This document shows, one piece after another, positions 28,053 through 49,349 of a DNA stretch of 64,000 bases (positions are counted from its first letter, which is position 1; each line of letters opens with the position of its first letter). The stretch covers positions 1,116,001-1,180,000 of the forward strand of contig NZ_CP012328.1 in NCBI RefSeq assembly GCF_001262715.1, read 5' to 3'. The translations under genes were made by a program, and so were the position numbers. The stretch comes from Spiroplasma turonicum (GTDB taxonomy: Bacteria; Bacillota_I; Bacilli_A; Mycoplasmatales; Mycoplasmataceae). Under the pieces are notes generated by a model. That model was not told the DNA's origin. It saw only the letters and a program-made list of their open reading frames with translations, and did no database searches.

Positions 28053-30656
28053 TTATTTTAATAAAAGCATTCTTTCTTTTAATTTATTAATTTTTTTAGA
28101 TCAAATATCTAGATTTTTAAAAAAATAAAATCTCTCCTTGTTTTTAAGATAATCCATTATATTAACTGCTTCTTTATAGTTACTTTTATAATGCTCAAAA
28201 AGTCTGTTTTCCTTATTAAATATTATTGAACAATTTAAATATATCAGTTTTGCCTCAGCTTTCTTTAATGCATCTCAATTATATAAGTAATATTTTTCTT
28301 CTTGTATATAAAATTTATTTATTTCATCTTTTTCAAGAGCGTTAATAAAATAAGATTTTTCATCATCAATGTTTTTTTCATAAACTAGCATTTTTACAAA
28401 TTTTAGATATGTCTGTGAAATTTTGCTTCAATTTTCATACAAATTATTTGCATTTTTAATTTCATAATTCAAGAATGTGTTTATATCAAAATTGATGTTA
28501 TTAATTAATATCAATGAGTGTTTATAATTTCTATTTAAATTATAAAATTCGTTTTCAAAAAAGCTATAACTTTCTTTTTGGTCTTGAAAAAACATAAAGT
28601 AATTTATAAATGTATCTGTTAAATATACTGAATCAATTTCATCTACAACACCGATTTTTAATTCGCTTGATTCGAACTTATTTAAGGAGTCTCTTTTGAT
28701 GGTAACAACTTCTTTATAATTGGTTTTAATATAATTAAAAAGTTCTTTTATGTTAAAAACATTTTTTATATGTTCAAAATTATATAAAATGTATCTATAA
28801 TTAAAGAGAAGCGCGGTTTTAATAAAATATAAAATATAAAAAATTTTTTTATCTTCATTAATGTGATTTTTAAAATAATTTTGAATAAAATTCTTTTTTT
28901 GATCGAATAATAAACTATGATTTAGTACATACACATTATTAGGTATAATTACATTTGAAAGAATTGAAAATAATTTTAAATTTTGATTAATAATATCAAG
29001 TTTGTTAAGCTCATCGTTATTTTCTAATAAAGATTTTATATTACTAATTAAATCGTTATATTGTTTATTCAAACAAAAGTTTCATTTTTTAAAATCAGAG
29101 TATTTAATAATTTTTATAGTGTCCTCAATAACTTCAAAACCAATTTGTTCAAGAATGAATATTTTAAATTCCTTTTTAATATTTATTAAATTGAAACAAT
29201 TATTAAATTCCTTCCAAAAAGTTTCTATATCTTTTATTTCGAGTTTATTATTTAAATCTCTGTATTTTTTATTGAACTCAATTAAATTATTTTTGCAATT
29301 TTCAGCAGACTCTAAACTTTTAAAAAAAGCTATAAATAAATTATTAAAGTTTTCTAAGTCCTTTAAGTAATTTTTATTGAAATTAAAAAATTTTAAAAGT
29401 TGATCAATATCCTCTTCAAAAATATTTATATTAATAATATTCGAGAAATTTCATGCCGTTTTTTTTAAATTCAAGACTAATTTTATAAAATCCTGAAAAG
29501 AATAAAAATCTTTTTTTAAAATTCGGACAAAATCTTCAAATAAAAACAAGTACTTTTCAATATTATTGTAGGTTTTTAAATAATTTAGTTTTGTTTGTTG
29601 ATATGTTTCTTCAGACTTTAAAAAAGTAACTTGATTTGTAAATAAAAATGGATTTGGCGATTCATATTCGTTATTATAAATTTTTGATACACTACAATAT
29701 TTATTTTTATTTTTTTTATTTGTTAAAAACTTATCAACCCATTGCGATTTAAATGCTTTTATTTCACCATTATATTTCTCATAAATAGTTATAAATATAC
29801 TTATTCAATTAGTTATAAGATTTTCATTTATTTTATTATTCAGATCATATTCATTTTTTATAAAACTTTCAAGTTCTTTAATATCAAATTTACTTAGAAT
29901 TATATTTAGATAAATCAAATCATACTTTATTGTTTGCCTATCAGTGTTATTATTAAAAATGTTATTAAAAATGTTTTTGTTTTCATCTGTACTATCAATG
30001 GCTAAAATAATATAAAAAAATCTCTTACTATAAAATGCATCTTTTTTTAATATTAATAACTCTTTTAATTTTTTACTTTTTTTATATGAATGGTAAAATA
30101 AAATTTCGAATAAATCATTTAAATTGCTAGGACAATTACTATAATTATAATCCTCTTTGCAAAAAGTTACTAATTTTTTATATTGTTTTAAATTAATAAA
30201 ACATTCAATTAATTTAGTACAAATTTCTTCGTTATAATTAAATTTTTTTAAGTTATCTATATTTAGATACAAAAAATTGTTATCAATAATCATATCTTCA
30301 TTTTGGCCCATGTTTAGTATCAAATTCAACGTAACTTCTTTTCTTGAAAATTGATCAATGCTTTTTTGTGTCAATCATATAAATTTGGTTTTAAGTTCCA
30401 AGATAAGATTATCACTTAAAAATTCACTTTGTTTATTTTTATTACAATACCTTAAAAATGTGTATAGCAACAAAAATGTGGTTTGGTTATCTTCATTTTC
30501 AAAAGAACCCACAGTATTATCAATAAAATTAAAATTATTGTTTCATTCTTTTATAAAGTTAATTTGTTTATATATTTTTTCAATATCGTTAACATCAATG
30601 TCATATTGAAATTGCAAAACAAGATTAATAATTTTTTTATTAAATGTTCTGATCAT
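28053..30656 (-). CDS. Unknown 867-aa helical partner of the SIR2 protein
   Basis: One continuous frame (I checked codon by codon in code 4) from ATG 30656 to TAA 28053; eight TGA and two TGG codons encode Trp. The protein is almost wholly helical and very rich in Asn, Lys, Phe, Ile and Tyr, with repeated helix pairs suggesting a HEAT/TPR-like solenoid. I found no Walker A, nuclease, TIR or membrane motif, and no signal peptide. It follows GAGGA and overlaps the end of the SIR2 gene by 17 bases, so translation is coupled. As sensor or regulator of the SIR2 effector it would fit known two-gene systems; this is inference. Family not recognised. Confidence 0.75.
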
Positions 30657-32262
30657 CTTTTTTTTGTCCTCACTCTTTTATTTTAATGCTTACACCGGAA
30701 TAATTATCTACTATAAATTTTTTAAATTTAATAAATTTAATTGCATAATTATTAAGCTCTTTTAAACAATCTATATAGTCTATATGATTAAAGAATTCTT
30801 CTATAACTTCATTTTTTTCGTTTAATTCCATTTTATAAACTTCTATTATTGAATATAAAAATAATGCATAATTTTTTTTATCTATTTCATCTTTTTTAAT
30901 TGAGTATTTGAAAAATAACTCAAGATAATCATAATCGCAGATTTCGTAAATGCAAGTATCTTTATATATTTTTTTATAAAAATTATCAATTATATTTTTA
31001 TTAATATATTGGTATAATTGTTTAATTTTTTCTTTGTACATATTTTTATCAATAATACAAAATATATCTTCTATTATATTATTATAAAAAAGTTTTTTTA
31101 AATCATCAAATTCTTTTAAATTGTCTAAAAAGTTAGATAAAAATTTATTTTTATCTACTATATCATATGATTCTATTTTTTTTTCAAAACTTAAAAGTTT
31201 ACCATTTATAGATTTTTTTAGAGTTAGCTTATCATTAAAGAGATTTATACTTTCTGAATCAAATATTGCATTTTTTAATTCTATAATGTCGCTGAAAAAT
31301 ACATAACCAATGTAATCTCTCTCTAAAAGAGATACACTTCTATCAGAACCTAAACTTTTATTTAAATAAGTATTTTTTAAATAATGGTCAATATCGTCCT
31401 GAAAAATAGTGAATTTTTTTTCAAAGGGTTTATTTTTATAAGTATACATATCCACTTCTTCAATAAGCTTTTTACCTAATAAATAATCATTAAAACTATA
31501 TCCAAAAAAAATTAGATTTTCTTCTTTTTTAAATAATCGCTTTATTAACTTTTTTAAAAATATGTTTACTTTTGATTCTTCAACCATATAACAATTAACA
31601 AAGGATGTTAAAGAGTCAATGATTGAGAAAGTATTTCCTTCTGCTTCTCAAATATTCGATTTATTATTTTCCTTAAAATATTCCTCAACTATGCTCCCGT
31701 GCAATGATATGTAAAACTGCTCACTTTCTAAAAAATTTGTATCATTACTTCAAAAACTGGTTATAAAGTTTTTTTCTTGTTCGCTTTTATTAATTAGAAG
31801 AATATCGTCATAGTTTGTGGTTATAACTTTTTCACTAAGTTTTTGAACCAAATTCAATATATTAAGGTTATTTAGTTTTTGTGTATTATTTTGAAACTTA
31901 AAATATTTCAGATAGGATTTTTTGACTATTTTGTAATATTTTATATTATCTAATCCATCCTTATTAATTTTTAAAAAATAATATAGTCAATCTAGAGCAT
32001 AAATTATGTCAATTTGTTTATTATTAAGACGTGTTTTTAAACTTTTTAAGTCATTTAATAGAGAAATGCTTTCATCTGAAATTTCTTCATTACTAATAAA
32101 ACATTCTAAATCCTTTAATAATTTATTTATAAAACCACGCCAATCAATAACATTAAAATTTAGAGAAAGGCCCGAACCATAAAACATTATGTTTTTTTTC
32201 GAATAATGTTCGTAACATAGATTTAATAAGATAAGAAGTGTGTTTCTTTCATTTTCTTTCAT
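30640..32262 (-). CDS. SIR2-domain protein, probable NAD+-degrading defence effector
   Basis: 540 aa, a continuous frame joined across TGA-Trp codons. The SIR2-like domain spans about 20-275: MFYGSGLSLNF (glycine-rich NAD loop, about 27-37), TTNYDDILL (148-156), SLHGSIVEEYF with the likely catalytic His188, and LIFFGYSFNDYLL (250-262). These are the marks of prokaryotic SIR2 domains that deplete NAD+ in anti-phage systems. The C-terminal 265 residues are helical and unrecognised. The start has no good ribosome binding site. It is the first gene of a two-gene cassette flanked by about 0.5 and 1.5 kb of gene-poor DNA. Confidence 0.85.
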
Positions 32263-32757: not shown

Positions 32758-32781
32758 AAAAAAAAGGTATTAAACCTTTTT
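32758..32781 (-). terminator. Intrinsic terminator of mgtA
   Basis: AAAAAGGT (32761-32768) and ACCTTTTT (32774-32781) form an 8-bp stem with a 5-base loop, followed on the minus strand by a T-rich tail. The stem begins within the mgtA stop codon (32780-32782). Confidence 0.75.
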
Positions 32782-35476
32782 ATAATCATTCTTTAAATAA
32801 TTTTATGTATCCTAATTTTACTGTTTGTGCTAAACAAATATATGCAAGAACAAAACCAATACCAATAGGCATAAATTCTAATGGTGGTGTAGCCATTTTA
32901 ACAGTTTCATTAATTGGTGTATATGGAACTATTATAGCCATTGAACAAACAAATACTGTTGATACATTAACTTGTCAAGAAGCTCTTGATTGTATGAATG
33001 GTATTTTTTCAGTTCTGTACATTTGCATAACTGCTGTTTGAGTCATTAACCCGACTAGGAACCAACTTGCATTAAACATCTCTTTTGAATTATTGTAAAG
33101 TAGATTATCATCAACATTAATTCCAGGAATTACACCGACCTTATTAGTAAATCCATACAATAATACTAAGAATGTAGATATATCAAATATTGAACTAACA
33201 GGACCGTTTATTAAAGCAAACCAAATCATATTCTTAGTTGTAAATGGTCTAGGTTTAGCAAGAAACTTTTGATCTACTTTATCAAATATGAAAGCAAACA
33301 TTACTATATCATATAATAAATTTTGTAATAATAGATGTAATGGTTGCATAGGTTCAACTGTTGTTAAAAATAACGCAACTAAAACACTTAGAACGTTACC
33401 AAAGTTTGAAGCAATAGTCACTTTAATATATTTTAATATATTTGCAAGACTATATCTTCCTTCTGTAACTGCTGAATCAATTGCCATTAAAGATTCACCC
33501 ATTAATATCATATCTGCTGCTTCTTGAGCAATGTTTGATGCATCAGCAAATGAAATTGCAATATCTGATTCTCTTAACACAGGTGCGTCATTTATACCAT
33601 CACCCATAAAACCAACAACATGACCTAATTTTTTTAAAGTTTCAATTATTATTGTTTTATGTATTGGACTAAGTTTTACAAAAACATTTGCTTCTCTTAC
33701 AGCTTTTTCAAGTTGTTCTTGGTCCATTTCTTCTATTTGTTTTCCTGTATATAATTTTGTTATCTTAAAATCAACATTTTTACAAATTGATCTTGTTATA
33801 ATTTCACTATCCCCTGTTAGAACTTTTGTTGTTATTCCTTTTATTTCTAACTTTTTAATGATTTCTTTAGATGTTTTTTTTGGTTCATCATAGAATGTAG
33901 CATAACCATAAAATACTAAATCATCTTCAATATCTTCATCTTCAAGAACGTTGTGAGCAATTCCAATTACTCTAAAACCTTCTTGATTTAACTCATGACT
34001 CTTATCAATTATTTTAGTTTTATGCTCATCTGTAATTTCAACAATTTCACCATTGATGTTAATACGGTTACATACTTTTAAGATTTCATCAACAGCACCC
34101 TTTGTAAAAATTTCTTTTTGATCATTTTTTGTTAAAATAACAGATAAAATTTTTCTTTGGAAGTCGAATGGAACTTCTCATTCTTTTTCATACCCATCTA
34201 AATTAGGTACTTTAATTTTTTTGCTTAATAAAACAGCTTGATCAATAGGGTTTTGAAAACCAGATTGATAATAACTATTTAAATATAAAATTTTCTCGAT
34301 TGTTTCTTCAGACTTTTGATTTGTAAATGTTAATGTTTTATCAAGTGATATCTCACCACTTGTAATTGTTCCAGTTTTATCAGTACATAATATATCAATT
34401 GCTCCTATATTTTGTACAGCATTTAAATTTTTAACTACTACATTATTTTTTTTAATTTTTGAATAACCTCTTGAAAGGTTAGAAGTTACAATAATTGGTA
34501 ACATTTCTGGTGTTAAACCAACTGCAACAGCAATCGCAAACAATGTTGCATTAAATCATTTATTATCTACATCACCTGGTCTTACTCCATAAACTATAAA
34601 AACTATTGGAGTAACAGCTAACATAAATGCTATAAGGAAGAAAATGACTTTTTTGATTCCTTTTTCAAAAGAGCTTTTAGGTCTCTTTTCTTTTACCTTT
34701 TTATCAATAAGTGAAAAATATGTATTCTCACCTGTTGCAACAACAATTCCTAAACCACTACCAGATACAACTTCAGTACCTGTATAACAAATATTTTCAT
34801 ATTCTAGATACTCATTTTTATCAGAATTGTGTGTGTCCTTTTTTTGAATAGGAAATGATTCACCAGTAAGTGAAGATTGATTTAAGTATAGGTTATTTGA
34901 TCATATAATTCTAGTGTCAGCAGGTACTAGATCACCATTTGAAAAGTATACTAAATCTCCAAAAACAATTTCATCATTATCAATATGTTCTGCTTCTTTA
35001 ATTAGCTTAATTGAATTTGCATTATCAACTGATTTGAAATTAAAATCAACATCTCTAATAATTTTAGATTGTTGTCTACTTTCAGTAAGCATTTTTTTTA
35101 TAACTAAATGAGAACGTATTTCTTGAACGAAATAAATAGTACCACTTAATACAATCATGAATAATACTAGCAAAGCTCCTATTAAGTCGAACTTATCTCC
35201 ATCTTCACTTGCATATGAGTAAAAACTAAAAGCATCAATAATTATTAATATAATATTAAAAGGACTTAAAAAAGATTTTATGAATGTTAAAAAAACATTT
35301 AGTTTTTTTTGTTTTAATTTATTTTCACCATATTTTAATCTATTCTCTTCAACTTGTTTTTCACTTAATCCAAATTGATTTGAATCTATTTTCTTCAATA
35401 ATTCTTTATGATCTAATTTTACATAGTTTGTGAGAGTTACTTCTTTTTTGACTTTAGTCTTAATTATTTTTTTCAT
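32780..35476 (-). CDS. mgtA: Magnesium-translocating P-type ATPase
   Basis: Imports Mg2+ at the expense of ATP. 898 aa, the exact usual size of MgtA/MgtB. Features: N-terminal cation-ATPase domain (YGENKL), TGES in the actuator domain, the phosphorylated Asp in CTDKTGTITSG (about residue 366), the hinge MGDGINDAPVL, and ten predicted membrane segments. The TPEMLPIIV segment is typical of the Mg2+ (P3B) group. Start ATG follows TTGGAGAG. The gene is monocistronic and preceded by a structured leader with an upstream ORF, consistent with regulation by Mg2+ or translation state. Confidence 0.95.
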
Positions 35477-35522
35477 AATCTCTCCAATCTAATATTTAAT
35501 AAAACATTAAATTGTTACTGAT

Positions 35523-35597
35523 TTATCTAAGTAAGGTTAGATAATCAATAACATTTCATCGGGAATGTACGTCTGAATTTTCGAGCGGAATGTTCAT
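35523..35597 (-). CDS. 24-codon upstream ORF in the mgtA leader
   Basis: ATG 35595-35597 follows AGAGGTGAT at five bases, the strongest kind of ribosome binding site in this genome. The peptide starts MNIPLENSDVHSR, contains one TGA-Trp, ends YLTLLR, and stops at TAA 35523-35525, 46 bases before mgtA. Too short for a gene search, but its strong start and its position within two competing hairpins suggest a leader peptide whose translation sets mgtA expression. Confidence 0.65.
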
Positions 35598-35605
35598 TGA
35601 TTATC
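35523..35605 (-). promoter_or_regulatory. mgtA: Structured mgtA leader with two mutually exclusive hairpins
   Basis: On the minus strand GATAATCAATGAACATT (35589-35605) pairs with AATGTTATTGATTATC (35540-35555) as a 16-bp helix with a single bulged G, closing a 33-base loop; it includes the upstream ORF start codon. A second hairpin, TTATCTAA (35537-35544) with TTAGATAA (35523-35530), uses bases 35540-35544 of the first helix and covers the ORF stop codon. The two cannot form together. This is the layout of a riboswitch or leader-peptide switch. It does not match the M-box (ykoK) consensus I know. Confidence 0.7.
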
Positions 35606-35624
35606 ACCTCTTTCACCAAGTTAG

Positions 35625-35630
35625 ATTATA
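35625..35630 (-). promoter_or_regulatory. mgtA: -10 element of the mgtA promoter
   Basis: A perfect TATAAT on the minus strand about 30 bases before the upstream ORF start. The -35 match (GTTATA at about 35648-35653) is weak. It gives a leader RNA of roughly 140 bases. Confidence 0.5.
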
Positions 35631-35675: not shown

Positions 35676-35698
35676 AAAAAACTACACATTATGTGTAG
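35676..35698 (-). terminator. Intrinsic terminator after the 567-aa surface protein gene
   Basis: CTACACA (35682-35688) and TGTGTAG (35692-35698) form a 7-bp stem with a TTA loop. The A run at 35676-35681 gives the U tract of minus-strand transcripts. It follows the stop at 35722 by 24 bases and ends the pur operon readthrough unit. It shares its core with two other terminators. Confidence 0.85.
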
Positions 35699-35721
35699 CA
35701 TTTTATTTTATAATGAACAAA

Positions 35722-37425
35722 CTATTTTTTAAATGCAGTTTTATCTTTATTTTTTGCTTTTTTAATAAAATGAGCTATTAAGAAACTAGAAATGATGACA
35801 ATTATTATTAAGCAAATAAATGTTATAAATAAATAAATTGCTAATAGAATACTTCTAGTTAAACTCTCTGCTGCCTCTCCAGAAGATTTATTTCATCCTA
35901 AAATACTTCCTTTATAGAGAGTTGAATTATTCATTTTAAAAGAAGACTCTTCAAATGAGCTTCTTAAATAATTTGCGCCATCTTCTGTTCTACCAAGATA
36001 AAATCCTAAAACTCTTCCAAAACCATCAAAAAAGCTTGAAAAAATATTAGAACCACTATATATACCATTTTTAAAATCATGATTATTTATGTCATCTGAG
36101 TATCTATTTAAACTGTCACCAGATATTATTAAATAACTATAACCAACTGATTCATAAATACTATTAAATCTACTTTTTATATATGAAACACCAGTATAAC
36201 TTTCAGAATATTCATTATTCATATAATTAGACTGTATATTTAGGGGATTATCCTGGGAAAATATAATGCCTAATATTGCATATTCAAAAGAATCATTACA
36301 ATTTTCAATATTAGTTATTTTAAAAATACAATTGAAGCAATTTAAAATAGAGGTTTTAAAATAATCTATTTTTTCTTCAGTTCAATTATAAAGTTTGCTA
36401 AGTTCAGAGATGGAAATGCTCAATGTTATATTAGAACCAGGATATTTTCTCTTGTTGTTTGTATGATTTTTATAAAAAGTATCTAATTCATCAAATGATT
36501 CAAACTTTTTATTTTCAGTTAATAAACTTTTAAAACTTAAAACTGACTTATTACTTGCTTTCTTATAATAATAATTATTAAACTTTTTAAATGAATCATA
36601 GTTAATGCAACTATCATTATTTTTACAGAAAACATGATTTAAATTATATTCTGCTGTGCTTTTAGAATTTATATAAGATCTAGATAAACCTAATTCATTA
36701 TTATTAGAAGAAAAACTTGCTGCTGATAAAAGAGCATTTTGTAAATAAGGATAATCATTATCATTAAAATTTATCATGCCAAAAAGATCATCACTATATA
36801 ACAAATCTTGATATGTTAGACTATTACTTAGTTTTTCTGATTTTAAATCATAAATCAAATTTGCTGAATGTTGTTTAAAATCATCATTTATAATTGATTG
36901 TATTTTTTTAAAATCAAAAAAACCACTAGCCTTAGATTTTAGTGAATCATATATATTTATAAAAAAATAATTTAATAATTCTCAAGAAAAGTTTTTTTGA
37001 CTATCTAAATCAGTTAACCATTTTATAAAAGACTCAGAAAAAAAATTATTATAAGATGTCATTCCTTCTAATGAAACAACAACTGTACTTGCTACAATAT
37101 TCATTCTAAAGACTAATCCTTTGTCTTGATCATATCCTAAGTTATTAACTAATTTATTAATGTATTCAAGATCATTAATATTAGAATGTTTATACAAGAA
37201 ATATTGCAAAGCTTTTCCAGCTCAGACTAAGTTTTTTGGGTTATTACTATAATATTCTTTATCTATATATTTATAGTTTTTTTCATTAGTTTTGGAGTTT
37301 ATATAGTTAATACTTTCATTAACTGGGTTTTCATTATATAAGTTATTTGAAGTAGCACCAAAAACGGTAACAAATAAATTTACCATTATTGATGTAAATA
37401 TTACTACTATAAAACTTTTTTTCAT
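35722..37425 (-). CDS. Surface-exposed membrane-anchored protein, 567 aa
   Basis: Four code-1 fragments share one frame and join across TGA-Trp codons. The N-terminus MKKSFIVVIFTSIMVNLFV is a signal peptide. A single C-terminal membrane span (about residues 527-555, LLAIYLFITFICLIIIVII) is followed by a short Lys-rich tail, so most of the protein should lie outside the cell. The ectodomain is Ser/Asn/Tyr/Phe-rich and unrecognised. Cysteines cluster around FKTSILNCFNCIFK and IENCNDSF. ATG 37425 follows GTGGAG. It begins 36 bases after purD with no terminator between, so the pur transcript may extend into it. Confidence 0.8.
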
Positions 37426-37461: not shown

Positions 37462-38730
37462 TTATTTTCCTATATCTTTTCTATAATAAAATTTATTAAA
37501 ATTAAAGTCTTCTATCTTTTTATATAGATTATTAATGCAACTTGATTTATTAATATCTTTATTCACTATAAATAGTACTCGTCCACCATTACTTTCAAAA
37601 AAGTCATTTTTTTCATTGTATTTGGTTCCCATATGATAAATAAATTCGTCATTAATCAATTTATTCTTATTTGCAATTTTTATATTTGTTTTATAATCTC
37701 CAGGATAACCTTCACTAGCTATTGTTACACCAACAAAGTTTTCATTATGTCAATTAACTTCTAATATATTCTCATCTAAAATGTTTAATATTACCTCTAC
37801 TAAATCACTTTTCATAGCTGGCATTAATACCTCAGTTTCAGGATCACCAAATCTACTATTAAACTCGATTACTTTAACTTCATTATTATTTGTAAGCATT
37901 AATCCAGCATAAAGTACTCCTTTATAATTAATACCTTCATTTTTAAGGGCTTTTATAGTTTTTTCGATTATCTCTTTATTACAAAAATTTATAATGTCTT
38001 TAGTTACATAATCTACAGGAGTATAACAACCCATCCCACCAGTATTACTTCCTAAATCGTTATCAAATATTTTTTTATAATCTTTTGCTGGTTGTAATGT
38101 TAAATATGAATTATTATTTACAATTGCTAATAAACTAAATTCTTTTCCTTCTAAAAACTCCTCTATTACAACTCCACAATTATCATTGTTAAAGATATTT
38201 TCATCAAAAATACTATTAATTACATTCTTTGCCTCAATCAATGAATTAATTATAAATACACCTTTTCCACTAGCTAAACCATCATTTTTAATTACAATTG
38301 GATATTTTTTATTTTGATTTAAAAAGTTTAAAGCTACTTCTTTATCATCAGTTGCAATAAAGTCTGCAGTTGGAATATTATATTTTTCAAAAATATTTTT
38401 AGCAAAGATTTTTGAGGATTCTATTTTAGCGGCTTCTTTTGTAGGACCAAAAATCTTAAGTTGGTTTTTATCAAAAAGATCAACAACACCTTTTTCAAGA
38501 AACATCTCATCTCCAACAATTGTTAAAGTTACTTTATTTTGGATAGCAAAGTTTAAAATACTCAAAGGGTTTTCATAATCAATATCTTTTACTACTGTTG
38601 CACAATTTTTCATTCCATCATTTCCGGGGATAACATAAACTTGTTTACATAGTGGAGATTTACTGCACTTTCTTGCAAGAGCATGTTCTCTACCACCTTT
38701 ACCAAGTATTAAAACTATTTGTTTTTCCAT
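37462..38730 (-). CDS. purD: Phosphoribosylamine-glycine ligase
   Basis: Step 2 of IMP synthesis: phosphoribosylamine + glycine + ATP to GAR. 422 aa, normal length. The N-terminal LILGKGGREHALA, the ATP-grasp loop VIKNDGLASGKGV, and the metal-binding EFNSRFGDPETE are visible. The start overlaps the purH stop as TAATG. It is the last biosynthetic gene of the operon although it acts second. Confidence 0.96.
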
Positions 38731-40271
38731 TAATGTTTAAAATGCCTTACAGAAGTAAATATCATAGCTATACCTTTTTCATTTGCCATATCTATTGATT
38801 CTTGGTCTTTTAATGAACCCCCTGGTTGTATTATAGCTTTAATTTTAAATTTAGACGCGAGTTCTACAACATCACTAAATGGTAAAAATGCATCACTAGA
38901 TAGAAAAGCATCTTCTGCTTTTTTTCCAGCTTGTTCAAGAGCAATTTTAGCAGAACCTATTCTATTCATTTGACCAGGACCAACACCAATTGTCTGGAAT
39001 TGTTTTGTTATTGCAATGGCATTAGATTTAACATGTTTTACTACAACATAAGCAAAGTATGCTTCTAGCATTTCGTTTTCATCTAACTTTTTATTGGTTA
39101 CTATTTTTCAATCTTTTATATTATGTTTATATAAATCTTTTTCTTGAACTAATAAACCTTGGTTAATTGTAGTGTATTGGTATTTATTTATTTTAATATT
39201 ATTATTTTTAAAATCTAATTTAAGTAATCTTAAGTTCTTTTTCTTACTTAAAATCTCTAATGCCTCTTTATCAAAATCTTGAGCTATTATAATTTCTAAA
39301 AATATTTTCGACATTTTTTCTGCCACATTTTTATTAATAACTTGATTAGTGGCAACAATTCCACCAAAGATTGAAATAGAATCACTATCTAAAACTTTAT
39401 CTCACAACTCTTCAACATTACCTTTAATAGAAACACCACAAGGATTCAAGTGTTTAATACCAACCATACATGTAAAATCATTTAAATCTTTTACAATATT
39501 AATGGCGCTATTTGCATCTAATAAATTATTATATGACAATTGCTTTCCATTAAGTTGTTCTGCATTTGTTAATGATATCTCTTCAAAATAATCATCTTTA
39601 TATAAAGTCGCTTTTTGATGAGGGTTTTCACCATACCTTAAAGTTTCAACTTTTGAGTAAGATAATGTTAAAATATCAGGAAGTGAATCTTTATTTAATT
39701 TCTTAAACAAGTAATTATTTATTAAAGAATCATACGATGAAGTATGTGAGAAGGCTTTTTGTGCTAGTTCTAATTTAAAACTATCGTCAACAGAGTTATT
39801 ATTTAATTTAGAAATTATTAAACCATAATCATTAATATCAGATATGGTTATTACATCTTTATAATTTTTAGCCCCTGCACGCAATAAGCTAACTCCACCA
39901 ATGTCAATGTTTTCAATAATGTCTTCATGAGAGCTATTTTTATTCTTTACAGTTTTTAAAAAAGGATAAAGATCAACAACGATAATATCTATGTAGTTAA
40001 TTTTATGTTTAAGAACTTGCTCTTTATGAATATTATTATTTCTTATTGATAAGATACCACCATATAAATTTGGGTGCAATGTTTTTACTCTACCATCAAG
40101 TATTTCAGGAAAGCCAGTAAGCTCTTCTACTTTTAATGATTCAATTTTATTTTCTAACAAATAGTTATAAGTACCTCCGGTACTAATAATTTTGTAATTT
40201 AATTTTATTAATTCATTAGCGAATTCTATTAAATTATTTTTATTAAATACAGATATTAATGCATACTTCAT
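38730..40271 (-). CDS. purH: Bifunctional AICAR transformylase/IMP cyclohydrolase
   Basis: Last two steps to IMP, using 10-formyl-THF. 513 aa. N-terminal MGS-like cyclohydrolase domain ([34 protein letters not shown]), then the AICARFT domain from about residue 200 with [11 protein letters not shown] and a C-terminal QPGGSLKD. The start overlaps the purN stop as TAATG and follows AAAGGAG. The formyl donor is made by Fhs and FolD, both encoded in this window. Confidence 0.96.
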
Positions 40272-40846
40272 TAAACTTCTTCTCCTTTAATTATTTTATT
40301 TATAATTTTCCAATAATAAATATGTTCTTGTTCTTGAATTCTTAATCTTAAAGTGTCAATATTATCATTTTTATATACTTTTACTTCTTTTTGAAAAATG
40401 ATTTGTCCAGAATCCATTTCTTCATTTACATAATGAATTGTAAAACCTGTTAAGTATACTTTATAATTTAATGCATCTCTCACAGCGTCTTTACCTTTAA
40501 AACTAGGTAACAATGATGGGTGAATATTTATAATTTTATTTTTAAATTTATTAATTAAAATATCAGTAATCATTGTCATATAACCAGCTAAGAATATGTA
40601 ACTTATGTTTTCCTTTTGTAAAACTTTCAAAATACTTTCTTCATATTCTCTTTTATCTTTATAGTTACTTAATAAAAAATTATAATTTTTAATATTGTTA
40701 TCAATTGCTCTTTGCGAAGCATAACAGTTTTTACGATTTGTTATTAATATAATTTTATTTACAAATAATTTATTTTGTTTATAAGAGTCAACTATAGATT
40801 GAAAGTTGCTACCATTACCTGAAGCAAAAATTGCGATATTAACCAT
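40271..40846 (-). CDS. purN: Phosphoribosylglycinamide formyltransferase
   Basis: Transfers a formyl group from 10-formyl-THF to GAR (step 3). 191 aa. Motifs: FASGNGSNFQSIV for phosphate binding, NIHPSLLPSFKG with the catalytic His, and FTIHYVNEEMDSGQI with the catalytic Asp. The start ATG lies inside the end of purM (8-base overlap), so it is translationally coupled. Confidence 0.96.
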   Translation of the reverse strand: MVNIAIFASGNGSNFQSIVDSYKQNKLFVNKIILITNRKNCYASQRAIDNNIKNYNFLLSNYKDKREYEESILKVLQKENISYIFLAGYMTMITDILINKFKNKIINIHPSLLPSFKGKDAVRDALNYKVYLTGFTIHYVNEEMDSGQIIFQKEVKVYKNDNIDTLRLRIQEQEHIYYWKIINKIIKGEEV

Positions 40847-41879
40847 TTATTAACCTAATACTTTCATTACTTTGTGTTACTTCTCCAATTAAATAAGAAT
40901 TATATTCATCTGTTTTATTGATTAGTTTTACAACGTCTAAATGAGTATCTTCATCTACTATTAACACAAAACCTACTCCCATATTAAAAATGTTAAACAT
41001 CTCATCTTCATCAATATTACCAATTCTTTGCATTAAATTAAAAATAGGATTAATTCTTAATTTACTTTTAAAAATATTAGCACACAATCCTTTAGGTAAA
41101 GCTCTTGGTATATTTTCAATTAATCCTCCACCTGTAATATTGGCCATAGCATTGATTTTAATATTAGAGTGCATTAGGTTTTTAACTAGTTTTGAATAAA
41201 TTTTTGTTGGCTTCATAAGTTCTGTTATTAAACTACAATCTAACTCTTCAAACTTATGGTCAAACTTAAAGTTATTGTCTTTAAAAAATATTTTTCTTAC
41301 TAATGAATAACCATTAGAATGAATACCAGATGAACTAATAGCGATGATTTTATTTCCGGGTTTAACATTTTTAAAGTCTATAATTTTTTCTTTTTCCACG
41401 GCTCCTGTTATAAAACCTGCAAGATCATAATGATTTTTAATATACATATCTTGCATTTCTGCAGTTTCTCCCCCAATTAATGAACATTCACTTTGTAAAC
41501 AACCATCAACGATACCTGTTATTATAGACTCTATAATTTCAACATTTATTTTATCAACAGCAATATAATCTAGAAAGTATAGAGGTGTTGCACCTAAAGT
41601 TATAATGTCATTTACACACATTGCAACTAAATCAACACCAATAGTATTGTGAATGTTTGATTCGATAGCAAGTAGTAGTTTTGTACCAACTCCATCTGTT
41701 CCAGAAACTAATAAAGGATTCTTTAAGTTTAGTTTAGAAAGATCAAATACACAACCAAAGTTACCTATATTACTTGAAAGATTAGCATCAAATTTATTTG
41801 TTACTATTTTTTTTATTCTATTTACAACTTCATAACCTTTGTGTATGTCTACACCAGACTTTTTATAATTTTCGCTCAT
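40839..41879 (-). CDS. purM: Phosphoribosylformylglycinamidine cyclo-ligase
   Basis: Closes the imidazole ring to give AIR (step 5). 346 aa. The N-terminal SGVDIHKGYEVVNRIK, the ATP-binding SGTDGVGTKLLLA and GGETAEM are characteristic. The start follows AAAGGAG one base after the purF stop. No TGA-Trp codon interrupts it. Confidence 0.97.
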   Translation of the reverse strand: MSENYKKSGVDIHKGYEVVNRIKKIVTNKFDANLSSNIGNFGCVFDLSKLNLKNPLLVSGTDGVGTKLLLAIESNIHNTIGVDLVAMCVNDIITLGATPLYFLDYIAVDKINVEIIESIITGIVDGCLQSECSLIGGETAEMQDMYIKNHYDLAGFITGAVEKEKIIDFKNVKPGNKIIAISSSGIHSNGYSLVRKIFFKDNNFKFDHKFEELDCSLITELMKPTKIYSKLVKNLMHSNIKINAMANITGGGLIENIPRALPKGLCANIFKSKLRINPIFNLMQRIGNIDEDEMFNIFNMGVGFVLIVDEDTHLDVVKLINKTDEYNSYLIGEVTQSNESIRLING

Positions 41880-41880
41880 T

Positions 41881-43260
41881 TTAAACTCCTTTATTTAAAT
41901 CATATATATCAACTGGATACACACCTGTAAAAATATCAAAACATCCTTGATTTGGTTTAAATAATTTTTTTAAATTATCTAATGTTAAAAACGATAAACT
42001 ATCAGAACCAATATAACTATTCATTTCAGCCAAGGACATGTTAGCAGCTAATAATTCTTTATATGTTGAAATATCTATTCCATAGTAACTTGGATATTTT
42101 ATTGGTGGTGAAGCTACTCTTAGATGAACCTCTTTTGCTCCATTGTCTTTTAATAATTTAACAATGTACTTAGATGTTGTTCCTCTAACAATTGAATCAT
42201 CAATTAAGATAACTCTTTTATTATTAATAACATCTTTAATGACAGATAACTTGTTTCTCACACCAATTTCACGAAGTTCTGTTGTTGGTTGTATAAAAGT
42301 TCTTCCTGAATACTTATTTTTAATTAAACCTATATCAAATGGTAAGTTAGACTTTTTAGCATAACCCAATGCTGCAGAAGTTGATGAATCTGGAACTCCA
42401 ATAACTACATCACCTAGATAAATATTTTCTTGTTCAGCCAATAATTCTCCTGACTTAACTCTGAAATTATGAACATTAATATCGTTTATCGTACTACTAG
42501 GATGAGAAAAATAAATATATTCCATTGAACAAACAGTATTAAAATTATTTTTTGAAAAGTAATAACTTTCTAAACCATTCTTTGTTATTTTTATAATCTC
42601 TCCAGGATTTACATCTCTTATAAACTCTGCACCTGTTACATCAAAAGCATAAGTCTCAGATGATACTACATATCCATTATTAAGTTTTGCAATTGATAAT
42701 GGCCTTAAACCATTTCTGTCTCTTATTGCATACATTTCATCTTCAAAAAGTAATAAAAAAGCAAATGCACCATTTATGACATTAAGAGAGTTTTTAATTT
42801 TGTTTATTCTTGTTTCCTCTTTGCTTTTTGTGATTAAATGCGCAAGAATTTCAGAATCACTTGTTGCTTGAAAAATGCTACCTTCTTCTTCAAACTTACT
42901 TTTTATTATATGAGCATTTGTAAGGTTTCCATTATGAGCTAATCCAAAGCTATCTTTACTTAGGTTAAAAAAGAAAGGTTGTACATTGCAATCCACCGAA
43001 CCTCCGGTTGTAGAATATAGAACATGACCTATTGAATTAATTGTATTTCAATTTTTGAAATCATTAATTCTAAACTTTTCAGAAACTAATCCTAAGCCTT
43101 TTTTTAAAATAAATTTATTTTTTTCATCATAGCCTAAAATCCCGCAACCTTCTTGTCCTCTATGTTGCAATGCATGTAAACCATAATAATTAACTAAGGA
43201 TGAATTATCAATATTAAAACATCCAAATACCCCACACTTTTCTTTTAACATCTCACTCAT
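41881..43260 (-). CDS. purF: Amidophosphoribosyltransferase
   Basis: Commits PRPP to purine synthesis with glutamine as amine donor. 459 aa. A short propeptide precedes the nucleophile in KEKCGVFGCF (Cys9); the mature enzyme needs cleavage there. LHALQHRGQEG marks the glutaminase half; VILIDDSIVRGTT is the PRPP loop. The ribosome binding site is weak and the start lies one base after the purC stop, so coupling is likely. Family members are inhibited by AMP and GMP. Confidence 0.96.
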
Positions 43261-43261
43261 A

Positions 43262-43966
43262 TTAAATGTTTAAACTTTCTAACTTTTGTAAAATAATTTG
43301 ATAAATTGAAGTTACATCATCTAAATCTTCTCTAAAACAATCTTTGTCTAACTTACGATTATCTTCATCTCAAAACCTACAAGTGTCTGGACTTATTTCA
43401 TCTCCTAAAATAATATGATTAGATTCATCCAATCCAAGTTCAATTTTAAAATCTACTACTTTTATATTTAGTTTATTAAATAGATTTTGTAATAATGAGT
43501 TAATTTTTAATGTTATGTTTTTAATTTCGACTAATTGCTCTTCTGTTGTTAAATTTAATATAATTGCATGATCATCATTAATTAAAGGATCTCCAAACTC
43601 ATCATTTTTATAACAAAGTTCAAAAATAGGTCTTTCAAATCTTGTACCTTCTTTTATTCCTAATCTTTTTGTTATACTACCAGCTGCAATATTTCTTATA
43701 ATTATTTCAACTTGAAACATTTTTAACTTCTTAACTAGAATGTTCTGATCATCAATAACTTTTATTAAATGTGTTTTAACACCATTTAACTGAAGATATT
43801 TAAATATAAGATTTGATATTTTGGCTGTTAGCAATCCCTTGGAAGCATATGTAGCTTTTTTTAAACTATTAAATGCTGTTACATCATTTTTAAAATAGAC
43901 CTTTAATTCATTTTGATTTTCAGTAGAAAAACATATTTTAGATTTTCCTTCATACAACTTTGCCAT
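43262..43966 (-). CDS. purC: SAICAR synthase
   Basis: Joins CAIR and aspartate (step 8). 234 aa, the short bacterial form. LYEGKSKICF at the N-terminus, AGSITKRLG, and DEISPDTCRFWDED (Trp by TGA) near the C-terminus are the signature. The start follows AAAGGAG one base after purL. The product needs PurB to continue, and purB is not in the window. Confidence 0.96.
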
Positions 43967-43967
43967 A

Positions 43968-46900
43968 TTATAATTCTCCTTTTTTATTTTTTAAAAAATA
44001 ATTTATTGCACTACTAAATATATCTTGGTTCTTATCTCCATAAATATTTTTACAAATATAGTCACCCTTTCTTTCGCTGTGACCCATTTTTCCTAAAATT
44101 AGTCCACATTTAGAAACGATTCCTTCAATATTGTAATAAGAGCCATTAGGGTTGTTATGATTATCTAAATATTCAAAAACTATTTGATCATTTTTTACTA
44201 ACTCATTGTATCCTTCTTCATCAATAACAAATCTTCCTTCACCATGTGAGATTGGTATATTATTTAACTGATTTAATTTCAAATCTTGTGTTCAAGGATT
44301 GTTTACACTTACTGTTTTACAAGTAACATATTTTGAGACATGTCTATTAACGTTATTTTTTATTAACGATGGATCGGTTTGCAATAAGTCTTGAGGTTCG
44401 CTGTTTGTTAATAAACCCGATTTAATTAATGCTTGGAAACCATTACAGATACCTAAAATTAATTTTTTATCATTTAAGAATTTTTTTATAGCATTTTTAA
44501 CAGTTTCATTTTTTAATACATTTGCTATATACTTACCGCTTCCATCAGGTTCATCTCCTAAACTGAACCCCCCTGGTATTACAAAGATATGAGACTCAAT
44601 TATTTTTTTTGCCAATAGTTCAATTGATTCATTAATTAATTTGTTATTTAAATTATTGAATATAAACTCTTCACAAATAACATTTGTATGTTTAAAAGCT
44701 TTTCTTATATCGTACTCACAGTTTGTTCCTGGAAATATTACAACAAGTACTTTTATTAAATTTAAGTCTAATGGATAATACTTCTTTTCTTTTTGATTAT
44801 TATTAATAGTTGTTATATTTTTTTCAGGATAAGCATCATTTGAATCATAATATATTTTCTTTATAGGACTTAAATAATTATTTTTAATTATTTCTTTATC
44901 AAAAACTTTTTCATTATAAATATAGCTTTTATGTACTTTTCCTAACCTAATTAAATTTTTATTCTCTAAATCAAATGGACTTTCGATAACAATTGACCCA
45001 TATGATTTTTCAAATATATTAATGTCTGTTTGGATATTAAATCCTAAATCATTACCTAAACTCATTTTTATAAGAGCTTCGTATAGACCACCTTGCTGAA
45101 TAGCGAAAGCTGATACAACTTTCTTTTCTTTAATTAATATTTCAACATCATTAAATATTTGTTTTATTTGTTCAAAATCTGGTAAACCATTTAATAAGTT
45201 ATGTTTAAAATAATAAATATTGTTGTTCTCTTTTTTAAAATCTGTGGAAATTATATTTTGAACTTTGGAAGTAGATAGGGCAAATGATACTAGAGTTGGT
45301 GGTACATTTAATGTTTTGTATGTTCCACTCATGCTATCTTTTCCACCTATTGCAGGTATGTTAAGTTCTTTTTGAACAAGTAATGCACCTAGTAATACCA
45401 AAATAGGTTTACCTCATTTACATTTATTTTTTTCTAACTTTTCAAAATATTCTTGTAAGGTAAGTTTTGAACTATTAAAACTTCCTCCGGCTGCAACAAC
45501 TTTTGCTAAGCTTTCAATAATTGCAAGCATTGAACCTAAATATACATTTCTTTCAAATAAATATGGATCATATCCATAACTCATTATTGTACAAATATTT
45601 TTATTTTCTTTTATTGGAATGATTTGACAGCTTACTTGTGTTTCTGATAACTGATATAAACCACCATAGGGAGCAAGTACAGTTGTTGAACCTATTGAAA
45701 AATCAAACATTTCTATCATTGGTTTTTGTGACATAATATTTAATTCTGAGACTTTATTATAGAACTTTTCATTACTAAAAATCTCATTCTCATTTAAAAT
45801 ATTTTTTTCTATTAAATATTCATTTGAAACTTCTGCATCAATTATATTTTTAATGCCTCCTGAGTTTATGAAGTCTCTATTTAGATCGACGCTTATTTCA
45901 TCTTTATATCATACAGTAAATTTGTTTTTATTTGTTATTTCTCCAATTTTAACTGCAATAAGATTCTCTTTTAATGCTTCATTGATAAATGTGTCCATAT
46001 CTTTTGGACTTATTACTGCAACCATTCTTTCTTGAGATTCAGATAATAATATTTCTTTACCTGATAATCCTTTATATTTTAGATGGACATTATCTAATCA
46101 AAGTTCAACTCCATCAGATAATTCACCAGCACCAACACCAATACCACCAGCACCTAAGTCGTTTGCTTTTTTTATAAGTATAGAAACATTTGGTTTTGAA
46201 AATAATCTTTGTAGTTTTCTTTCTTCAACAGGATTTCCTTTTTGAACCTCACTATAAGAATTTTTTAATGATTCTTCATTTTGATTTTTAGAAGAGCCGG
46301 TTGCTCCACCAATACCATCTTTACCAGTTGCTCCACCAACTAAAATTATTATGTCTTTATTTTTTGGTGTTTCTCTTCTTATATTCTCGATTTTAGTTAC
46401 ACCAACTACCGCTCCAATTTCTAATCTCTTTGCTTTATAACCTTCATGATATATTTCTTTTACTAAAGTTGTGGGTACACCAATTTGATTTCCATAACTT
46501 GAAAAGCCCTCTGCAGATACTTTTGATATTTTTTGTTGAGGTAATTTATTTGCTAAGGTATTTTTTATATCCTCAAGAATATTCCCAGAGCCAGTAACTC
46601 TTAAACCTTGATAAACATAAGCACGTCCTGAAAGAGGATCTCTTATTGCTCCACCAAGACAAGTTGCCGCCCCACCATAAGGTTCTATTTCTGTTGGATG
46701 ATTGTGAGTTTCATTTTTAAATTGGACTATGCATTTTGTTTTTTCTAAATCTACATAAATTGATGATGCATTTATTTCTTCTGACAATTCTAAATCTTCA
46801 ATTTTATTTTCACTAATTAATTTTTTTATATAACAAGTAGCTATATTCATTAATGTTAGTTGTTTTTTAATATTATTTTTATAGTAATAATCTAAAATGC

Positions 46901-47633
46901 CTTTTATGCTTTCTAAGTAAATATTACCTTTAATGTTTTGCAAATTAATATTATTAATTAATGTTTCAAATGTTTTATGCCTACAGTGATCACTTCAATA
47001 TGTATCAAGCAAATGTAGTTCGACGTCATTAATAACTTTGTTATTTTTAATAGATCATTCAACAATAAAGTTAAAATCTTCTATACTCATTGCTAAATTA
47101 TTTTTGTTATATATAGTTTCTAAATTAGTATTTTGCAATTCATTAAAATTATAAAAAGTGGTTTCACTTTTTGTTAAATTAAATTCTTTATGCTTAGAAA
47201 ACAAATCATATTCATAACATTCGATTGGATTAATAATATAATTTTTTATTTGAACTAATGTATCGTAATCAAGATTGTTCTCAAAAACATAAAGCTTAAA
47301 ATGTTTAAGTAAAACTTTTCTAGATAATAGTAAGTTAGAACAATCCATTGCACTTTCTTCTCTTGGATTATATTGGCTATCTAAAACTTTAACAGCAAAG
47401 AATTTTTTACTCTCGAGATTTACATTATATAAAACTTGATCTGTGTTTGGTTCAGATAAAATGTTTTTTACAATTGTAGTTAGCTCAGTTTCAGACACAT
47501 CAAATAAATCATAACAATTATAAACTTTTATACTTTTTAAATTTAATAATAAATTTTTATTAATTTCTTCTTTCAAATTGTTGGACTCAACGTCATAGTC
47601 TTTTATTTTTTTAGTGTAAACTCTTTTAATCAT
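43968..47633 (-). CDS. purL: Phosphoribosylformylglycinamidine synthase, single-chain PurL-PurQ type
   Basis: Step 4, FGAR + glutamine + ATP to FGAM. Five code-1 fragments are in one frame, giving 1221 aa. The synthetase part has ETHNHPTEIEPYGGAATC (about 290), VGGATGKDGIGGAT and an internal repeat. A glutaminase domain is fused at the C-terminus: PGTNCEYD, GICNGFQALIKSGLL (nucleophile Cys), and SHGEGRFVIDEE with the catalytic His. The fused long form matches clostridial or proteobacterial enzymes rather than separate Bacillus PurS/Q/L. The start overlaps purK by 8 bases after GGAGGAA. Confidence 0.96.
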
Positions 47634-48708
47634 TTAATTCCTCCAGGTGTTTTGTTACATTGCTGCATATATCAAATAAATTTTTTTTACTTTTACAAAC
47701 TATATTTATGTGTCCCATCTTGCGATTCTTTTCCGCTTTATCTTTTATGTAGTTATAGATTTTTATTTTTTCATTTTTATAAGACAAATTTATTTCATCG
47801 CCTAGTAAGTTAATCATTATAGTGTTATATAAAAGTTTTGGTTTAATTATTTTATTTGATGTAATTGCGAGAATATGATTTCTAAATTGACTTACATTGC
47901 AACCATCAATTGTGTAATGACCTGTGTTGTGTACTCTTGGTGCCATTTCATTGAAATACAATTTTTTATTTTTGACAAAAAACTCAAACGCTACTGTTCC
48001 AATAATATTTTCATTAATCATTATCTTTTTAATTTTTCTTTTTACACTTCTTAATAGCTTATTATTTTTTTTAACTACAGTTGACTTCCTTAACAATCCA
48101 TTTTGGTGGACATTAATTGGCATCGGATAAAAATACACTTGATTAAATTTACTTCTTGTTACAATTACACTCGTTTCAAAATCAAAGTTCAAAATTTCTT
48201 CTATCAAATATCCAACATTACTATTAGGTATGTTATTTATATCTTCTATATTATTAATTCTAAATTGACCTTTACCATCATATCCTCCTTCATTTAGTTT
48301 CACTAAAAAAGGAAGTGGTATAATTTTATTTTCTGCAATGTTCTTAATTTCCTTAATTGATTTTGTAAAAACATAGTTAACTGTTTTTAAATTGTAATTA
48401 TTTGCAAATTTTTTTTCTTTAATTCTATTTTTAGAGATTTTTAAAAAGTTTATTGGTGGGTATATTTTATTTTTAAAGTCATTTAAAACATTTTCATCAA
48501 TATTTTCAAACTCGTAAGTTATAAACTCACATTCATTATAAATTTTGTTTATTGAACTTAAATCATTGTAATTGCAATTAATTATTTCACAATCAAGGTC
48601 TATGCAACTATTTTTAACTTTAGGTTCTAAAACTATATAATTGAAGTCTGGACTAGACTCTATTAATAATCTTGCTAATTGCCCCCCGCCAATAATACCA
48701 ACTTTCAT
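47626..48708 (-). CDS. purK: N5-carboxyaminoimidazole ribonucleotide synthase
   Basis: ATP-grasp enzyme making N5-CAIR from AIR and bicarbonate (step 6a). 360 aa. The N-terminal VGIIGGGQLARLL, KLNEGGYDGKGQFRI, and the metal-binding NEMAPRVHNTGHYT are visible. It starts one base after the purE stop. PurK plus PurE is the bacterial route, unlike the single PurE of animals. Confidence 0.96.
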   Translation of the reverse strand: MKVGIIGGGQLARLLIESSPDFNYIVLEPKVKNSCIDLDCEIINCNYNDLSSINKIYNECEFITYEFENIDENVLNDFKNKIYPPINFLKISKNRIKEKKFANNYNLKTVNYVFTKSIKEIKNIAENKIIPLPFLVKLNEGGYDGKGQFRINNIEDINNIPNSNVGYLIEEILNFDFETSVIVTRSKFNQVYFYPMPINVHQNGLLRKSTVVKKNNKLLRSVKRKIKKIMINENIIGTVAFEFFVKNKKLYFNEMAPRVHNTGHYTIDGCNVSQFRNHILAITSNKIIKPKLLYNTIMINLLGDEINLSYKNEKIKIYNYIKDKAEKNRKMGHINIVCKSKKNLFDICSNVTKHLEELND

Positions 48709-48709
48709 T

Positions 48710-49189
48710 TTAATAAACCTCAGTTTCTATTACAGTTTGGGTTTGTTTATTTATATAAGTTTTTAATTTTTCTTTTAAGTTATTATTATTTAAAGATAAG
48801 ATTCTAATAGCAAATAATGCTGCATTCTTAGCTCCACTTTCTCCAATTGCCATTGTCGCAACTGGTACACCACCAGGCATTTGAACAATTGACAACAATG
48901 AATCAACTCCATTTAAATTAGATGATTTTACAGGGACACCAATTACAGGTAAAGTAGTTAAACTTGCAACCATTCCAGGAAGATGTGCACTGCCACCAGC
49001 AGCGGCAATTATAATATCATATTTATCAACTGCAGTTTTTGCAAAGTCAAATAATAATTCAGGAGTTCTGTGTGCTGATACAATATTTAATGTAAAGTCT
49101 AGTTCAAATTGTTCTAATATATCTAAACAACCTTCAATGGTTTTCTTATCACTTATTGAACCAATTATAATAGCAATTTTATTTTTCAT
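48710..49189 (-). CDS. purE: N5-carboxyaminoimidazole ribonucleotide mutase
   Basis: Converts N5-CAIR to CAIR (step 6b). 159 aa. IIGSISDKKT, VSAHRTPELL (catalytic His) and AAAGGSAHLPGM are the signature. ATG 49189 is chosen over GTG 49195 because AAAGGTG is correctly spaced only for ATG. It is the first gene of the pur operon, just after the riboswitch terminator. Confidence 0.97.
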   Translation of the reverse strand: MKNKIAIIIGSISDKKTIEGCLDILEQFELDFTLNIVSAHRTPELLFDFAKTAVDKYDIIIAAAGGSAHLPGMVASLTTLPVIGVPVKSSNLNGVDSLLSIVQMPGGVPVATMAIGESGAKNAALFAIRILSLNNNNLKEKLKTYINKQTQTVIETEVY

Positions 49190-49202
49190 TTTCACCTTTC
49201 TT

Positions 49203-49232
49203 AAAAAAAAGACTCCTTTACAAAAGGAGTCT
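49203..49232 (-). terminator. Riboswitch-controlled terminator before purE
   Basis: AGACTCCTTT and AAAGGAGTCT form a perfect 10-bp stem with a 3-base loop, followed by seven T on the minus strand. It ends 14 bases before purE. Its 5' arm overlaps the antiterminator partner TTATAGAC (49229-49236). Confidence 0.95.
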
Positions 49233-49260
49233 ATAACAAAAAAATCATAGTTATATGACT

Positions 49261-49329
49261 CATTTTATAGACAATAATTTTCGGTTATTTGTAGAAACGC
49301 TCGACCATATTACAAGCATATATAAAATG
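49261..49329 (-). ncRNA. Purine riboswitch (guanine type) controlling the pur operon
   Basis: P1 is CATTTTATA with TATAAAATG (9 bp). P2 is GCTTG/CGAGC with loop AATATGG. J2/3 is GTTTCTAC. P3 is AATAA/TTATT with loop CCGAAAA. J3/1 is GTC, so the specificity base is C, as in guanine sensors; the base before it is U where the xpt aptamer has A. GTCTATAA of J3/1-P1 is complementary to TTATAGAC at the terminator base, a clear antiterminator. Ligand binding would hold P1, free the terminator and switch purine synthesis off. Known class; operation here is inferred from pairing. Confidence 0.9.
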
Positions 49330-49340
49330 ATTACAAATTT

Positions 49341-49349
49341 ATTATAACA
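49341..49349 (-). promoter_or_regulatory. Extended -10 promoter of the pur operon
   Basis: TGTTATAAT on the minus strand, a TGn-extended perfect -10 box, about 10 bases upstream of the riboswitch P1. No good -35 is present, which an extended -10 can tolerate. Confidence 0.6.

Follow-up and report, generated by a model that had tools for sequence, protein, structure and literature searches.

A putative ribosome-gated leader peptide in front of the Mg2+ transporter gene mgtA of Spiroplasma turonicum and related Mollicutes

Introduction

Gene regulation is thought to be sparse in near-minimal bacteria, and the usual Mg2+ switch in their Gram-positive relatives is the M-box. How, then, might a Mollicute control its Mg2+ pump? 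The complete genome of Spiroplasma turonicum (1.26 Mb, genetic code 4, TGA = Trp) poses this question at mgtA. An earlier note, made from the letters of the sequence, had described a short open reading frame (uORF) and two mutually exclusive hairpins in the leader of this gene and had read them as a switch, based on a leader peptide or on Mg2+ sensing, without a described counterpart in Mollicutes. We analysed a window of 64,000 nucleotides containing the locus, and took mgtA orthologues with their upstream regions from 60 genomes of the same family, to which Spiroplasma sp. TIUS-1 and Mesoplasma grammopterae belong; these yielded 65 leaders.

Results

The gene mgtA (32780-35476) and all elements of its leader lie on the minus strand. 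Its 898 aa product, translated with code 4, is a P-type IIIB Mg2+-transporting ATPase and scored 846.8 bits against TIGR01524, above the cut-off of 610.75. The gene upstream of the leader ends at 35722 and has an intrinsic terminator-like hairpin behind it (35681-35699, an 8-bp stem followed by a T-run), and mgtA therefore appears to be a separate transcription unit. A perfect -10 box, TATAAT (35625-35630), is situated 33 nt upstream of the uORF start codon. Transcription of mgtA is accordingly expected to start shortly before the uORF, which, with the start site placed from this box, would be the first element of the transcript. This arrangement is conserved: TATAAT precedes the uORF ATG by 24-42 nt in 39 of the 49 family leaders that have a uORF by the strict rule given below. 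A search for a terminator within the leader yielded no candidate between uORF and mgtA, the only such hairpin being that of the upstream gene.

The surroundings of the locus deserve a brief description. Just downstream of mgtA (30640-32262) a 540-aa protein with a SIR2-like domain is encoded (PF13289, E 4.1e-6), possibly involved in defence. Further upstream, the window holds a complete purine biosynthesis run (37462-49345), which is unusual in a Mollicute; its genes resemble by sequence purE, purK, purL, purC, purF, purM, purN, purH and purD, and it is headed by a purine riboswitch (RF00167, 57.4 bits, 49248-49345, minus strand). Elsewhere in the genome, mgtE sits directly behind another gene and has no comparable leader.

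The uORF (35523-35597) comprises 24 codons, reads MNIPLENSDVHSRWNVIDYLTLLR with TGA as Trp and ends on TAA. Its strong Shine-Dalgarno (SD) sequence, GAGGTGAT (35603-35610), is 5 nt away from the ATG, and the uORF is presumably translated. The earlier note had placed its start inside one hairpin and its stop inside the other, with a near-perfect ribosome binding site (RBS), and this was confirmed. Five of its codons are rare: CCG at position 4, CTC at 5, TCC at 12, CGA at 13 and ACC at 21. In the neighbouring genes CCG, CTC, TCC and CGA account for shares of only 0.00, 0.01, 0.03 and 0.04 within their codon families, and none of 5000 stretches of 23 codons sampled from genes had codons as poor as those of the uORF.

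Four arms describe the folding of the leader. Arm 1 (35582-35610) carries the RBS of the uORF together with its start codon and first codons, and arm 2 (35533-35561) its late codons. The 16-bp helix between them announced in the earlier note (35589-35605 with 35540-35555, one bulge) was found again and turned out to be longer in both directions, outwards by 35606-35610 with 35533-35537 and inwards to 35582-35561. It is the minimum free energy (MFE) fold of the leader and buries the RBS and start codon of the uORF. The second helix had been described as 8 bp long and as sharing five bases with the first. It does exist and the two are mutually exclusive over the same bases, but it had been under-called: it runs to 16 pairs with one bulge, between 35537-35552 within arm 2 and a 3' arm that includes the uORF stop codon (35514-35530), so that helices 1:2 and 2:3 share all of arm 2, about 16 nt. 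Helix 2:3 is obtained when folding begins downstream of a ribosome parked on the early codons. A further helix, missed in the earlier note, pairs arm 3 (35502-35514) with arm 4 (35485-35497). This helix 3:4 overlaps the MFE helix 2:3 at C35514 only and ends on the first G (35485) of the mgtA SD sequence, GGAGAG (35480-35485).

That such a leader is more than a chance product was indicated by its folding energy, surpassed by one of 200 shuffles (z -2.81), and by the recurrence of the uORF plan in relatives. A strict rule asked for a six-base SD match, an ATG, 20-45 codons and a stop 12-110 nt before mgtA. Leaders of this kind made up 49 of the 65 in the family as against 8 of 1300 shuffles (0.6%), and none of nine divergent mgtA paralogues of the same family had one. 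Among the 16 family leaders falling outside this rule, several have a uORF visible by eye (L030, L042 and, with a GTG start, L040 and L041), and part of genus g8 has an 8-codon leader ORF, MDLGILLL. In this part of genus g8 (L043-L048, L056 and L060, with one mgtA copy) the leader consists of only 8 codons ending in LGILLL, ATT sometimes stands at the expected start codon, and a TTTAGGA segment has its complement, TCCTAAA, before mgtA. A motif pattern made of RBS, start and first codons had exactly one match per genome in 28 genomes, each time just upstream of mgtA; reversed, as a control, it had none.

The plan of the leader is kept in relatives while most of the sequence drifts. The N-termini of the peptides are homologous. 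When 25 distinct peptides, of either the window type or the MSIPS type, were compared, there was hardly any variation in codons 1-5, with Pro4 present in all 25, whereas the later codons varied. The motif M-x-[IV]-PL-[ED]-NSD-[VL]-HS is common to the three window-type peptides, between which synonymous differences were seen as well. Compared with seven genes of the window, codons 2-16 of the family leaders were rich in Pro (7.3% vs 1.7%) and Ser (17.7% vs 7.2%); Asp and Glu were without enrichment across the leaders as a whole. Acidic/proline motifs were observed in other genera, namely PLPVSDSPES (L026), GDFPDPES (L030), SDNPEP (L061), PEPEPGE (L063) and LDDNPES (L064), and a cluster of this kind near the N-terminus was clear in L026, L030, L055, L061, L063 and L064. 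Window-type peptides had no such cluster and nothing resembling EPDP. No run of a single amino acid or a single codon type was seen in the family peptides inspected.

The earlier note had proposed an alignment of related leaders as a check. Relatives were found to retain the ORF as well as the two helices. In one clade five pairs of helix 2:3 were altered on both sides, and the changed cells and the score exceeded 500 of 500 shuffles as well as all slid controls. For helix 1:2 no double compensation was seen in this clade (clade A, the best-aligned one), where covariation is uninformative since arm 1 is invariant.

The M-box covariance model (RF00380) found no match in the window or in any of the 60 family genomes, as the earlier note had anticipated for this leader, and no other Rfam family matched the mgtA leader at gathering or permissive thresholds. 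M-boxes of 107-143 bits immediately precede mgtA in order-mates (L078, L080-L083) and in other Bacilli (L105, L110), and these leaders mark the transition from the uORF type to the riboswitch. The two seem, from this distribution, to have been exchanged for one another at the same gene. A different mgtA leader, with a uORF of 22-26 codons, is seen in family f7 (L085, L087, L096, L099). Its GERS/CERY/YERS motif is conserved and includes GAGCG, for which a CTCTCC-like segment opposite the mgtA SD sequence would be a possible pairing partner. Leader-like ORFs before mgtA, such as MEDSQSRYYKVHNF and MDSGSSYRPIPNG, were noticed in Bacilli using code 11 (L108, L111, L112), and given these the uORF type of leader may reach beyond Mollicutes. 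Rho over the cut-off was found in 0 of 60 family genomes; the weak matches below it are probably ATP synthase paralogues. This agrees with the reported absence of Rho from Mollicutes (PMC7745072).

The cost in free energy of opening the SD and start region of mgtA was then calculated for each leader, both for ribosome-free RNA and with a ribosome footprint placed on one uORF codon after another. The method was thermodynamic folding, which ignores co-transcriptional kinetics. The start site was predicted to be closed without a ribosome or with a ribosome late on the uORF, and open with a ribosome near codons 8-12. In the window the cost was 9.8 kcal/mol for the free leader, fell to 5.4 kcal/mol for a ribosome on codon 8 and stood at 9.7-10.3 kcal/mol from codon 11 to codon 23, dropping again only once the ribosome had reached the uORF stop. 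This result was robust to a 12-nt footprint edge and held for the SD sequence alone (6.1, 2.7 and 6.3-6.9). The conserved codons 1-5 belong to the part of the uORF on which a retained ribosome is predicted to open mgtA.

Larger swings were predicted for relatives, some of which went from under 1 to over 10 kcal/mol: free, early and late costs were 7.1, 0.3 and 8.5 kcal/mol in L013, 6.7, 0.1 and 13.1 in L021 and 9.9, 0.8 and 11.4 in L005. When the effect was scored as the smaller of the free-minus-early and late-minus-early differences, the mean over 34 leaders was 3.8 kcal/mol vs 0.09 in shuffles that preserved dinucleotides and kept the 5' and 3' ends fixed. Better scores than in every shuffle tried were obtained for 20 of the 34 leaders, including the window (4.4, with 0 of 33 shuffles as good). 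The corresponding Z of about 15.5 is not a clean probability and overstates independence, since the leaders are phylogenetically related. The position effect was weak in L002, L003, L011, L046, L049, L053 and L061, and the two nearest relatives were modest, with 5 of 46 (L002) and 5 of 40 (L003) shuffles as good. It vanished in L007 when the SD sequence was considered alone, and the f7 leaders L085, L096 and L099 did not follow the position-dependent pattern. In the window species helix 3:4 reaches no further into the SD sequence than its first base, besides flanking stems, which makes the predicted effect weaker than in relatives. Masking of the SD sequence in the window species is therefore marginal, and the strongest support comes from the relatives.

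Discussion

Taken together, these data make it reasonably likely that the leader is a ribosome-gated translational attenuator of mgtA, in which a ribosome on the first uORF codons opens mgtA and slowing or destabilisation of this ribosome at low Mg2+ is the most likely trigger. The reading of the earlier note as a leader-peptide switch is supported by the conservation of uORF and helices and by the compensatory changes in helix 2:3 in one clade. The predicted architecture of a uORF with mutually exclusive helices is well supported. Without a ribosome, arms 1 and 2 would pair, leaving arm 3 free for arm 4, and the mgtA start site would be closed. A ribosome that stays, stalls or drops off within the first ~10 codons would keep arm 1 open and arm 2 uncovered; helix 2:3 could then form, helix 3:4 would open and mgtA would be translated. 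During smooth elongation the ribosome would cover arm 2, helix 3:4 would re-form and mgtA would be off. This direction of control in vivo is the one that the folding calculations suggest. A translational readout fits because no Rho above cut-off was found in the family and no terminator-like site is present between uORF and mgtA.

Concerning the trigger, Mg2+ is probably the signal, given that the gene is mgtA and by analogy with enteric MgtL and Salmonella mgtQ. Low Mg2+ would slow or destabilise the ribosome on the early codons of the uORF, where the conserved Pro4, the rare codons and, in several lineages, the acidic/proline motifs are found. In enteric MgtL the EPDP motif leads to ribosome drop-off at low Mg2+ (PMC11282234), and drop-off on an aborting peptide of this type might, by analogy, act as trigger here as well. 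The same attenuator might instead respond to a signal other than Mg2+, such as translation speed, the charging of a scarce tRNA or the supply of an EF-P-type factor. Pro4 and the very rare CCG, CTC, TCC and CGA within the first 13 codons would suit such a signal, and Salmonella mgtP does respond to charged tRNA-Pro (PMC8092293). However, the peptides have no one-amino-acid run of the amino-acid attenuator kind, and the Mg2+ pump gene is the only gene with which the leader is associated; there it occupies the place of the M-box. We therefore regard a non-Mg2+ signal as unlikely, if worth keeping in mind.

The remaining explanations dispense with part of this design. Stable alternative helices in front of a gene for a Mg2+ importer could belong to an RNA that binds Mg2+ directly as a riboswitch, the uORF being incidental. 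The leader drifts freely outside RBS, start, first codons and helices, it has no Rfam match and the uORF is strictly conserved; a leader peptide is preferred to a ligand-binding riboswitch, since conservation falls on the RBS, the start and the first few codons and not on an aptamer core, which leaves the direct riboswitch very improbable. A uORF that merely supplied mgtA with ribosomes, through coupling or reinitiation and without any switch, would agree with the distance of about 15-110 nt between uORF stop and mgtA, and short leader genes are reported to be able to increase the expression of genes behind them (PMC4833913). Coupling needs neither a covarying helix 2:3 nor an opening that depends on ribosome position far beyond what shuffles give, and we hold it to be quite improbable. 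Most classical leader-peptide attenuators act on transcription, and E. coli mgtL acts through Rho (PMC11282234). With neither a terminator-like site between uORF and mgtA nor Rho above cut-off in any of the 60 family genomes, transcription attenuation by a terminator inside the leader is extremely improbable.

If the ribosome-gated attenuator is the right reading, near-minimal, wall-less bacteria would possess a conserved ribosome-gated leader on their Mg2+ pump, and one regulatory RNA would have been replaced by another at the same gene. Mg2+ sensing by the ribosome would moreover have been adopted on at least two occasions, in enterics via Rho and in Mollicutes via translation alone. We found no earlier report of such a leader in Mollicutes in the open-licence literature, in line with what the earlier note had supposed. 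The chances are about even that these leaders represent a class of Mg2+-sensing peptides that is widespread in Mollicutes and evolved independently, with the ribosome replacing the M-box as sensor, a purely translational readout and fast-evolving peptides that have no more in common than a slow or destabilising stretch early in the frame.

Several known systems resemble the present one. The M-box (ykoK, RF00380) stands in the same position before the same gene with presumably the same signal, but it is a ligand-binding RNA without an ORF and absent from this Mollicute family. In the erm leader peptides, drug-inducible translational attenuators, it is likewise the position of the ribosome on a leader ORF that frees a downstream RBS, although antibiotic-bound ribosomes are the inducer there and resistance genes are regulated (PMC8274638). 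MgtL, the enteric mgtA leader with its IRD motif EPDP, shares with the Mollicute leaders a peptide encoded before mgtA (PMC11282234, PMC6460261), and its early Pro and acidic codons have counterparts in several Mollicute lineages (PEPEPGE in L063, DFPDPES in L030, DSPES in L026). It acts via Rho-dependent termination, however, a type not encountered in this family without Rho. Another parallel is mgtQ of the Salmonella mgtC-mgtB intergenic region, a short ORF with a strong RBS before a Mg2+ P-type ATPase gene, in which the opposition of arms 1:2 and 3:4 to 2:3 was demonstrated by mutation and compensation (PMC8092293). There, too, helix 3:4 closes the RBS of the transporter gene (one SD base in the window), control acts on translation and not on transcription, as predicted here, and a single Pro is found at position 4. 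The differences are nevertheless considerable. MgtQ counts 8 codons, is located within an operon and depends on Asp2/Glu5, whereas the Mollicute leader has 20-44 codons, would come first on its own transcript and encodes an unrelated peptide in a different phylum. As the Mollicute peptides are not recognisably related to either MgtL or MgtQ, their leader is likely to be of independent origin.
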